Part shown: one piece after another, positions 42,031 to 51,225 of the stretch
How positions within the stretch are numbered: the first letter of the stretch is position 1
Layout of the letters: every line of letters starts with the position of its first letter
Origin: Bacteroidota bacterium
Lineage (GTDB): Bacteria > Bacteroidota > Bacteroidia > NS11-12g > UBA9320
NCBI GenBank assembly: GCA_016124755.1
Contig: WGNA01000025.1
Coordinates: 1-51,225 of the forward strand
Reading direction: 5' to 3'
Length of the DNA: 51,225 nucleotides
Notes under the pieces: generated by a model
What the model was told of the DNA's origin: nothing
The model's input: the letters and a program-made list of their open reading frames with translations, nothing else
The model's database searches: none
Position numbers and translations under genes: made by a program

Positions 42031-42138
42031 TGTTTTGCTATCCGATACATCACAAGGAAAAGTGGTAAACAGCATTTACCGGAAAATTAACCAGCGGTAT
42101 GTTTTGTCTAACAAGCGAGAATTTTACTTCGGCAACTG

Positions 42139-42158: not shown

Positions 42159-44705
42159 ATGAGACTGAAAACACGATTCCTGTTCTTCTTTTTTCTCGTT
42201 TCTCTTTGTACTAACGGGCTTATTGCGCATGAAACCGGCATTACATTATCGTATAAAAAGGCATTGTTAATTGGTGTTTCGCATTATCAGGATTCGATGT
42301 GGAATGTGATCGGTTCTACGCGCGATCTGGATTCCATTCAATATGCTCTTCTTAAAAACGGATTTAAAAATTCGGATGTCGAGAAACTCACCGATTCGAT
42401 GGCGACCTACGCCGGAGTAAAAAATGCCTTTCTGCGGTTGTTGCAAAATGCGAAAGAAGGAGATGTGATTTACATTCATTTTTCGGGGCACGGACGGCAA
42501 TTAGAAGATGATATTCATTACGCCGATGCCGATCGTCAGCTTGCAATTACCAACGGTGATGAAACGGATGGTTTTGATGAAGCGCTTGTATTGTATGATG
42601 CGAAATTGCGAATAAAAGATGCTTCCGATCCGGGGTATTTAACCGACGATGAATTCGGTTGGTGGCTGCAGCTTTTACTCGATAAAGTTGGGATTACCGG
42701 ACAGGTTGTGGTGAGTTTAGACGCATCTCATTCGGGTCCAGATGAATTAATTTTAAACGCGAATCATACAGCTCCGGTTTCGGCAAGAGGCGGATTTGTG
42801 GAGGAGATAAACAATCAGAAAACGTATGCGACTAATCTCGTTTTGTATTCGGCGTGTCTCAGCAACGAGATTTCGTATGAATACGATAGCTTGGGCACAT
42901 GGACGTATGCCTTTATTCACGCATTGGGCAAAACCCGGGAACAAACCACCGGAGATTTGCAGACGGAAATAGAGCATATTTATCGGGCTAAGAAATTTAA
43001 TTCAACTCCCACAGCAACCGGGGAAATGATGAGTCCGTTGTTCGAAAGATCCGGAATTGCCGTACCGCATCAGCAGTTTAATACAAAAAATTCGAAGGCG
43101 GATTTTTATGTAATCAGTATTGGAATTGGTAATTATAAAATTAAAGGATATGGCAATTTGCTTTTTAATAATTGCGTGTCGGATGCCGTGGGATTTACGG
43201 ATGTAATTCACAAACAATATGTGCGGTATCATCAAAACGACAGCAATCATTATTATTCGCAGGTTTTATTGAATGAGAATGCAACGCTTTCCGGTATTAA
43301 AAAAGCAATCAACGAGGTAATTAATAAAGCGAAGAAAGAAGATTATTTCTTCTTTAATTTTTCCGGATTTACGTATGCGATCACCGATTCTGTGCGAAAA
43401 GGAGAGATCATTTTTGTTCCTTTTATTGATGGTGATTTTTATCCCGGAAAGTCGAATAGCGATACACTCGGAATGAGTTTAAAGCAATTAAAGGATTTGA
43501 TGACTTTTATTCCGTGTAAAAATCAATTGCTCGTTTCGGAAGCCGGTTTGTCGGGAGATTTTACCCGGCAATTTACCAAGGCGATGATTGAAACCAGTGC
43601 TTCCATTCAGGAATTGGAAAAGCGAAACCGCGTGATTATGGTGCCGAGGGATTACGGAAAAGACAATTTTATGTGCAACGATCAGCTCGTGGCTTCCGGT
43701 CCGATAAACTATTATTTACGCTATTACGGAAACCGGAATTATTTGTTAAATATTTTTTCGGATGATGCGAAAGTGCGTCAGAAAGCAGCGTATGATATTC
43801 TGAGAATTGAAAATACCTGTGGTTTTACTGAACCGTATTCCGAAATATATTTTGAACGCGACCTGATTGAAAATCTGCAGTTTTATATTCAGTCGGATGA
43901 ATTGAATCGCGGCGGTAAATCCAAATCTACCGGAATGAATAATGAGACACTTCATGTCGGTAGGAAATACGCAGTGGTAATTGCAACCGGGAATTTTGAA
44001 GCCGAAGGAAATGAGTGGAAGAATCTCAACAATCCGATTGATGACGGGAAGGAAGTTGCACGTTTGTTACAAGCTAATTTCGGCTACGAGGTTGAATTAT
44101 TAATTGATCCGACTGCCGATACTATTTTTCAGGTGCTGGATTCGCTATCGAAAACGCTGAAGGAAAATGATCAGTTTGTTTGTTTTATTGCCGGTCATGG
44201 TGATTATGATCCCAAATTTTTTGATGATGGTTTTTTAGTTTTACGCAATTCACTTTCGTTAAAAAAGGATCCGTATCGCAGAACTTATTTGCCTTTTACA
44301 TTATTGGGAAACATCATCGATAATTTGCCGTGTAACCAGGTGATGTTGATGGTGGATATTTGTTTTGGCGGGGCTTTCGATCAGAAATTGGTTAAAGGCG
44401 AACGATCCAAAACGCCATCGTATAATGATGTGGAAACGGCGATGATGATTTCGGAAAAGATGAATAAACGAACGCGGATTGTTCTGGCGTCCGGAAGTTT
44501 AAATACAGTTCCGGATGGTTACCGCGGAAAACATTCTCCGTTTGCCGCCAAACTGATTTCTGCTTTAGAATCGAAAGGCGGCGATCGCGGTGTAATTCTA
44601 TCAACTCAATTGTATGAAAGTGTTCAATGGCTGCCGTCTAAACCATTTTTGGGTGAACTTTTCGGGAACGAAAGCGGCGCGGAGTTTTTGTTGATCGCGG
44701 AATGA
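42159..44705 (+). CDS. Exported protein with three caspase-like (C14) domains, only the third with an intact dyad
   Basis: An 848-residue protein with a signal peptide (MRLKTRFLFFFFLVSLCTNGLIA). Three caspase/metacaspase-like p20 domains follow. Domain 1 starts KALLIGVSHYQDS and keeps HFSGHG (His111), but its Cys motif reads LDASHSG, a Ser at 190 instead of Cys (codon TCT). Domain 2 starts DFYVISIGIGNYK, has SGFT in place of SGHG (Phe404), and EAGLSGD in place of DACHSGD, so both catalytic residues are lost. Domain 3 starts KYAVVIATGNFEAEG and has AGHGDYD (His680) and VDICFGGAFD (Cys735), the complete dyad. The predicted activity is a periplasmic or surface cysteine protease, probably Arg/Lys- or Asp-directed but not determinable here. 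There is no T9SS tail. The gene is divergent from the DUF4139 gene. Confidence 0.88.
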   Translation: MRLKTRFLFFFFLVSLCTNGLIAHETGITLSYKKALLIGVSHYQDSMWNVIGSTRDLDSIQYALLKNGFKNSDVEKLTDSMATYAGVKNAFLRLLQNAKEGDVIYIHFSGHGRQLEDDIHYADADRQLAITNGDETDGFDEALVLYDAKLRIKDASDPGYLTDDEFGWWLQLLLDKVGITGQVVVSLDASHSGPDELILNANHTAPVSARGGFVEEINNQKTYATNLVLYSACLSNEISYEYDSLGTWTYAFIHALGKTREQTTGDLQTEIEHIYRAKKFNSTPTATGEMMSPLFERSGIAVPHQQFNTKNSKADFYVISIGIGNYKIKGYGNLLFNNCVSDAVGFTDVIHKQYVRYHQNDSNHYYSQVLLNENATLSGIKKAINEVINKAKKEDYFFFNFSGFTYAITDSVRKGEIIFVPFIDGDFYPGKSNSDTLGMSLKQLKDLMTFIPCKNQLLVSEAGLSGDFTRQFTKAMIETSASIQELEKRNRVIMVPRDYGKDNFMCNDQLVASGPINYYLRYYGNRNYLLNIFSDDAKVRQKAAYDILRIENTCGFTEPYSEIYFERDLIENLQFYIQSDELNRGGKSKSTGMNNETLHVGRKYAVVIATGNFEAEGNEWKNLNNPIDDGKEVARLLQANFGYEVELLIDPTADTIFQVLDSLSKTLKENDQFVCFIAGHGDYDPKFFDDGFLVLRNSLSLKKDPYRRTYLPFTLLGNIIDNLPCNQVMLMVDICFGGAFDQKLVKGERSKTPSYNDVETAMMISEKMNKRTRIVLASGSLNTVPDGYRGKHSPFAAKLISALESKGGDRGVILSTQLYESVQWLPSKPFLGELFGNESGAEFLLIAE

Positions 44706-45224
44706 AAACGAAAAGACAAAAACGAAAAACGAAAATCGAAGATCGATCCGCCTACGCCTATCGGCTTTCGCTTGCGCCGTAGCTTTCTCTTACGCCGTAG
44801 CTTCAGCGAAGGAACACAGCGAAGGAGCATGGCGGACGTGACTCTGCGAAAAACTTTGCGTGACTTTGCGGCTAAATAAAAGTACGATTTAAGGGGTACG
44901 ATTTACGAACGGGGCAACCAAAGTAGAAAAGCGAAAATTGAAAAATGAAAATCGATCCGCCTTCGCAATTGCTGGCGCAATAGCTTCGGCGGATAAAGAA
45001 CTGCGTGACTCTGCGAACAACTTTGCGTGACTTTGCGGTTAAACACAAGTACGATTTTAGAGATACGATTGACGAATGGGGCAACCAAAGTAGAAAAGCG
45101 AATATTGAAAAATGAAAATCGATCCGCCTTCGCAAATGCTGGCGCAATGGCTTTCTCTTACTCCGTAGCTTCAGCGAAGGAGCACGGCGGATAATAACCC
45201 AAAGTGAATAATTAAATTCATTTA
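44706..45224. repeat. Repeat field: GGCGGAC/GCTTCAGCGAAGG and CTTTGCGTGACTTTGCGG families
   Basis: A GAAAACGAAAAGACAAAAACG purine tract opens the region. A GATCCGCCTACGCC ... GGCGGACG element follows at 44742-44836, with GCTTCGCTTGCGC-, TTTCTCTTACGCC- and GCTTCAGCGAAGG-type modules. CTTTGCGTGACTTTGCGG copies are at 44853-44870 and 45021-45038, each in a direct repeat of about 165-170 bp containing AAGTACGATTT, GGGGCAACCAAAGTAGAAAAGCG and ATCGATCCGCCTTCGCAA. A final GCTTCAGCGAAGGAGCACGGCGG piece ends at 45192. No gene is seen. Confidence 0.8.
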
Positions 45225-50798: not shown

Positions 50799-51225
50799 AT
50801 CGAAAATCCAAAAGCGAAAATCCAGAAATTGAAAATCGAATAACCGTTACAACTAAAACATAAGATTCAAGAACTGCGTGACTCTGCGGTTAAACCCAAG
50901 TACGATTTCAGAAGTACGATTTACGAACGGGTCGACCAAAATGGAAAAGTGAAAAGCCAAAAGACGAAAATCGAAGAAAGAACTAAACTGAAATGGAGAA
51001 TAAACAACTGCGTTACTCTGCGAAAAACTTTGCGTGACTTTGCGGTTAAACTCGAGTACGAATTCAGAGGTATGATGTACGAACGGGTCGACAAAATGGA
51101 AAAGGGAAAATCTAAAAGACGAAAATCGAAGAAAGAACTAAACTGAAATGGAGAATAAACAACTGCGTTACTCTGCGAAAAACTTTGCGCGACTTTGCGG
51201 TTAAATAAAAGTACGATTTAAGAGG
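50799..51225. repeat. Direct repeats of the CTTTGCGTGACTTTGCGG family at the window end
   Basis: A 156-bp unit begins with GGGTCGAC (50929 and 51085) and contains GGAAAA(G)TGAAAAG-type purines, AAAGAACTAAACTGAAATGG, ACTGCGTTACTCTGCG and CTTTGCG(T/C)GACTTTGCGG. It runs to the window edge, where the second copy is cut. A partial unit precedes it at 50870. Relatives are at 16225-16330 and 44845-45070. The open frame at 50949-51146 is repeat-derived and is not a gene. Confidence 0.85.

Follow-up and report, generated by a model that had tools for sequence, protein, structure and literature searches.

A rare family of apparently exported bacterial caspase-like proteins with two degenerate domains ahead of an intact one

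Chains in which a pseudo-caspase domain is joined to an active caspase domain are already known. In the type III-E CRISPR system Craspase, the protein Csx29 (TPR-CHAT) combines a pseudo-caspase domain, CHAT1, with an active CHAT2 domain (PMC10028731). In coral caspase-X, deletion of the dead first domain raised killing activity in a cell assay (PMC4715348), and in mammalian caspase-16 the N-terminal caspase domain is without the dyad while the C-terminal dyad is kept (PMC12198278). Pseudo-orthocaspases of bacteria have been described mainly as separate proteins of Cyanobacteria and Alphaproteobacteria, with 10 of 1078 Bacteroidetes sequences, and regulation of true orthocaspases by them was considered unlikely (PMC6426788). 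We analyzed a gene from a 51,225-nt stretch of Bacteroidota DNA (the window) that encodes a protein with three caspase-like domains, two of them degenerate.

The reading frame is uninterrupted from the ATG at 42159 to the stop codon at 44703-44705, so that the coordinates given in the initial annotation were correct (Table 1). An alternative in-frame ATG at 42099 would give an N terminus 20 aa longer. The segment 42141-42148, TACTTTTG, matches the Bacteroidetes promoter element TAnnTTTG; as it lies just ~10 nt 5' of the ATG at 42159, the assignment of either the start codon or the promoter is uncertain. A signal-peptide-like N terminus, judged by hydropathy, is common to the window protein and all relatives inspected, and on this basis the protein is apparently exported; Pfam, searched up to an E of 1, detected neither a T9SS C-terminal domain nor a C25 domain. 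The gene is solitary, the upstream DUF4139/DUF4140 gene being divergent and the downstream gene on the opposite strand, and its neighbors were unmatched among the genes flanking the homologues. Immediately 3' of the gene, positions 44707-45190 contain intergenic repeats with two 150-nt copies that are 92% alike; this repeat has 69 matches in the genome, many of them clustered and several at 50875-51225 of the window. The host genome, a 4.05-Mb assembly, gives ten C14 matches.

Table 1. Positions in the window of the gene, its domains and the residues at the catalytic positions.
Feature	Coordinates	Strand	Evidence
Gene for three-domain caspase-like protein, 848 aa plus stop	42159..44705	+	ORF, Pfam, homologues
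Signal-peptide-like N terminus, residues 1-23, MRLKTRFLFFFFLVSLCTNGLIA, cleavage point approximate	42159..42227	+	Sequence, hydropathy
Domain 1, pseudo-caspase, residues 31-300, His111 kept, Ser190 replacing Cys	42249..43058	+	Pfam; model Z 22.5 to AtMC4; dyad tally
Domain 1 His111, codon CAC	42489..42491	+	Codon reading
Domain 1 Ser190, codon TCT, catalytic Cys position	42726..42728	+	Codon reading
Domain 2, pseudo-caspase, residues 313-596, Phe404/Gly463 at dyad positions, [ST]EAG motif	43095..43946	+	Model, fold match, 18/18 dead
Domain 2 Phe404, catalytic His position	43368..43370	+	Alignment
Domain 2 Gly463, catalytic Cys position, Gly invariant in the domain 2 family	43545..43547	+	Alignment, domain 2 profile
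Domain 3, intact caspase domain, residues 597-848	43947..44702	+	Pfam; model Z 20.7 to MALT1
Domain 3 catalytic His680	44196..44198	+	Conserved 12/12
Domain 3 catalytic Cys735 (DICFGG)	44361..44363	+	Conserved 12/12

Membership of the C14 family was indicated by Pfam PF00656 (Peptidase_C14), which the whole protein matches with 119 bits against a curated cut-off of 21.4, and by the His-Cys dyad of domain 3. Taken alone, domain 1 (2.6e-13, 50.6 bits) and domain 3 (5.3e-17, 62.7 bits) match the same profile. Domain 2 by itself gave no Pfam C14 match; a profile of its family reaches metacaspase chains (E 0.00045), and its AlphaFold model (pLDDT 83.4, pTM 0.84) matches 3bij with a Z of 18.4 (2.7 A, 199 residues), AtMC4 with 17.9 and MALT1 with 17.2. 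The best matches of the domain 1 model were metacaspases and those of the domain 3 model MALT1 and caspases. The models support a caspase fold for each domain, domain 2 included. The initial annotation had proposed three C14-type domains in tandem and had named the lack of a caspase fold in domain 2 as evidence against its reading; the tandem is borne out, and such a lack is contradicted by the 3bij match. Separase, gingipain and CHAT structures were absent among the fold matches listed, which excludes none of them, and Pfam up to an E of 1 gave no CHAT or TPR match. The full-length model (pLDDT 72.8, pTM 0.50) fixes neither the packing of the domains nor an interface between domains 2 and 3. 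The PADLOC model PDLC02987 'caspase' matches the protein (8.1e-23), as C14 domains generally may do; PADLOC and NCBIfam gave generic or sub-threshold caspase matches only. The motifs are as first described: SGHG and DASHSG in domain 1, where His is kept and Ser stands for Cys, FSGF and SEAGLSG in domain 2, where both residues are lost, and AGHG and DICFGG in domain 3, which from its sequence is the sole plausible protease of the chain.

Six distant three-domain homologues were identified by a scan of named genomes, all in Bacteroidota and ~30-34% identical to the window protein: three from Chitinophagaceae (L050, L052, L056), one from Flaviaesturariibacter aridisoli (L053) and two from Bacteroidetes MAGs (L051 and L054, with L040 and L054 being one and the same gene). 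One full-length three-domain homologue came from a class-wide draw of 395 genomes, such a protein was present in just 2 of 294 genomes sampled from the family to which L053 belongs, and in the source order only two-domain relatives (domains 2 and 3) and relatives of single domains were found. Viral contigs contained no relative, and the matches on plasmids were partial and confined to single domains. The three-domain version is a rare conserved family that extends beyond this one genome. Its members, except L054 and the window protein, carry ~200-330 additional N-terminal residues, with a sub-threshold MORN_2 match in L051. In L054 the gene belongs to a same-strand cluster (L054:137-12602) that includes a C14-TPR gene, and in L051 an active WD40-caspase gene is divergent from the three-domain gene. 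A close relative from a MAG (L060, identical to L098; about 42-43% in domain 3) has domains 2 and 3 in different, overlapping frames, probably through a sequence error or a deletion and possibly as a split gene; this copy was excluded from the counts.

The order dead-dead-live was found in all seven three-domain proteins; its recurrence in the six homologues takes the pattern beyond chance. The dyad of domain 1 is broken in 7/7, domain 2 is without both dyad residues in the 12 aligned proteins, with Gly always at the Cys position, and domain 3 has an intact dyad in the same 12. Extension with the domain 2 profile, on which the core of the family scores far above all else, brought the set to 18 proteins (the 12 aligned and L110, L111, L100, L099, L015 and L032), of which L099, L015 and L032 score within the range of ordinary active caspases (L117-L119) and were counted by their position before domain 3. 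Domain 2 is dead and its Gly invariant in 18/18, an intact domain 3 follows in every case, and no domain 2 without domain 3 behind it was seen in this set. Routinely catalytic copies of domain 1 or 2, which had been named as an observation that would weigh against the first reading, amount to 0/7 and 0/18, respectively. Separately, in large proteins of ~1250-1400 aa from many Bacteroidia including the source genome (L013, L016, L019, L021, L025, L031, L033, L034, L036, L046 and L049), a degenerate, caspase-like stretch lies ahead of an active caspase domain at the C terminus; in the ~1360-aa proteins, which have a large N-terminal part, the His is absent from this C14-like stretch in all that aligned.

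The dyad of domain 1 was lost in more than one way. The initial annotation had raised the conservation of Ser190: Ser is present in 4/7 (the window protein, L050, L052 and L056), whereas L054 has Thr and L053 and L051 have kept Cys and lost His instead. The codon at the Cys position is TCT in the window, one base away from Cys as was pointed out at the outset, AGC (Ser) in Chitinophagaceae and ACT (Thr) in L054; TCT and AGC are more than one change apart, and the shortest routes from one to the other lead through Cys or Thr. In the domain 1 tree, L053, which lost His, forms one clade (99/99) with L050, L052 and L056, which lost Cys, so that the simplest assumption is an ancestor of this clade with both residues in place. 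Combined, the differing codons and this clade make at least three separate inactivation events the simplest reading. Deeper placements in this tree are unsure owing to long branches, and with these branches an AU test of a single-clade origin of the seven domains gave a p of 0.465. A sequencing or assembly error in domain 1 could be suspected, as Ser190 is a single base from Cys, and is given a negligible probability: domain 1 is also broken in independent genomes with different codons, domain 2 differs at many positions and the reading frame is intact. Retention of His with a hydroxyl residue in place of Cys in 5/7 members, through three codons, might also mean that domain 1 is alive, His111 and Ser190 (Thr in L054) acting as an alternative hydroxyl-nucleophile hydrolase. 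This is very improbable, since two members lost the His instead and a caspase fold whose Cys is changed to Ser normally lacks activity. Ser is also the commonest substitution of Cys in inactive metacaspases (PMC3501461).

Between L050 and L056, the one pair close enough for the estimate (other pairs were saturated at synonymous sites), dN/dS was 0.135 for domain 1, 0.053 for domain 2 and 0.025 for domain 3; in this pair each domain is under purifying selection. A recent internal tandem duplication was rejected, as domains 1 and 3 lack significant BLAST similarity to each other. Domains 1 and 2 could be decaying remnants of a multi-domain protease, retained just for folding of the chain. Domain 1 is the fastest-evolving domain and its dyad is broken in several ways, as such decay would predict; we nevertheless consider it unlikely, because the dN/dS of both domains is well below 1, domain 2 has strictly conserved residues and the order is preserved across distant Bacteroidota lineages at ~30% identity. 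Conservation, low dN/dS, repeated inactivation of domain 1 and the invariable fusion of domains 2 and 3 argue that the degenerate units have been retained for a function, and these units look like maintained pseudo-caspases, working parts and not products of decay.

Asp95 and Asp211 of TbMCA2 are acids of the S1 pocket, where they accommodate basic residues of the substrate (PMC6426788). In the alignment, acids are kept at these positions in domain 1 (Asp56 and Asp188, 7/7), domain 2 (Asp342, 12/12; Glu461, 11/12) and domain 3 (Asp629 and Asp733, 12/12). Domains 1 and 2 therefore have the features of pseudo-orthocaspases, namely a caspase fold, a lost dyad and, by sequence position, an acidic pocket. 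The kept positions suggest an Arg/Lys specificity for domain 3, which probably cleaves after Arg or Lys; domains 1 and 2 might bind such peptides but leave them uncut, although the Asp positions could instead have been conserved for structural reasons. The same retention, described for cyanobacterial pseudo-orthocaspases (PMC6426788), would fit domains 1 and 2 being mainly substrate-binding or decoy modules (exosites) that bind Arg/Lys peptides or other caspases and leave domain 3 uncontrolled. The location of the L054 gene, separated by 24 nt from the active WD40-caspase gene ahead of it and adjoining an active C14-DUF4384 gene, is also in line with such modules. However, domain 2 occurs solely as a fusion to domain 3 (18/18), as would be expected of a role in cis, and many of its invariant residues lie outside the pocket positions, so that we regard the exosite proposal as rather doubtful.

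The explanation that we favor, and to which we give an even chance, is that domain 3 cleaves, domain 2 is its obligate inactive partner in cis, as scaffold or allosteric regulator, and domain 1 is an optional accessory pseudo-caspase. The gene product would be an exported clan CD (C14) cysteine peptidase in which cleavage is carried out by the C-terminal domain 3, and the permanently inactive domain 2 would keep domain 3 in the right conformation and/or restrain it. MALT1 and caspase members require a dimer partner through beta6 (PMC4357240). As domain 3 best matches these dimer-dependent proteins, domain 2 is proposed as a stand-in partner, which would most simply replace the second subunit in a caspase/paracaspase dimer. 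The ancestor of domain 1 would most simply have been active, metacaspase-like and inactivated several times, and the present domain probably holds basic peptides or other caspases without cutting them. By analogy the dead units are probably regulators, and control of domain 3 by domains 1 and 2, as c-FLIP controls caspase-8, is plausible in view of coral caspase-X and Csx29; the regulatory role suggested in the initial annotation, likewise plausible, is better supported than before. We infer export, P1 specificity, the pseudo-dimer of domains 2 and 3 and the direction of regulation. Points that count against this favored explanation include the pTM of 0.50 for the full-length model, the estimate of dN/dS from one close pair and the possibly structural role of the conserved acids. 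In addition, domain 1 may have little to do with domain 3, as it is absent from two-domain relatives and evolves fastest, and prokaryotic pseudo-orthocaspases were argued mostly not to regulate true ones (PMC6426788).

A more specific, tentative version is a built-in heterodimer in which domain 2 would sit permanently in the partner site of domain 3 within one secreted chain, while domain 1 would be a second pseudo-caspase, acting as receiver of a signal or of another caspase, whose inactivity was selected, as it was killed repeatedly and independently. The same logic might operate in trans, through an active C14-DUF4384 gene adjacent to a gene for a dead caspase of 355 aa. Six genomes of the same family contain a gene for an active, apparently exported C14 caspase (DACHSG) and, after it, one for a ~355-aa member of the caspase family in which [DE]AGFG replaces DACHSG (Cys to Gly). 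These loci are on contig C13 of the source genome (L108:2768-4732, with a DUF4384 match, and L108:4890-5933) and in L102-L106, and the dead proteins form one clade (100/99). An active/pseudo caspase pair acting in trans is possible.

A family in which dead and live caspase domains are always fused, and in which domain 1 was inactivated by several routes, offers a test in bacteria of whether pseudo-caspases regulate, which was thought unlikely (PMC6426788). If domain 2 is a dimer partner in cis, partnership between caspase and pseudo-caspase would have evolved not only in animals but also in bacteria, and there in a context other than the CRISPR one of Csx29. The literature search, which left subscription papers mostly outside, found no secreted C14 protein with two dead and one live domain and no bacterial tandem pseudo-caspases other than Csx29. 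Like the window protein, Csx29 is a bacterial chain with a pseudo-caspase domain ahead of an active caspase-like one; unlike it, Csx29 is of the CHAT type, has an RNA-guided partner and a TPR domain, and carries one dead domain instead of two. In coral caspase-X, too, an inactive C14 domain precedes an active one within a single chain, but this is an animal protein of caspase type with two domains and no reported export signal. Caspase-16 originated from an exon duplication within the gene, whereas domains 1 and 3 of the window protein show no significant BLAST similarity. c-FLIP and caspase-8 are two separate cytosolic chains with death-effector domains, in which they differ from the window protein. 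There too, a dead caspase homologue partners a live one (cited in PMC6426788). Gingipain R (C25) of Porphyromonas is likewise an exported Bacteroidota protease (PMC4357240) with an N-terminal subdomain that resembles the active one (PMC4626109); it differs in its peptidase family and in the smaller size of this subdomain (four strands). With bacterial pseudo-orthocaspases (PMC6426788), the window protein shares p20 domains in which the dyad is lost and the acidic pocket kept. In comparison with these systems, the protein described here is a variant whose new features are apparent secretion, the C14 type and two dead modules, the first of which appears to have been inactivated repeatedly.
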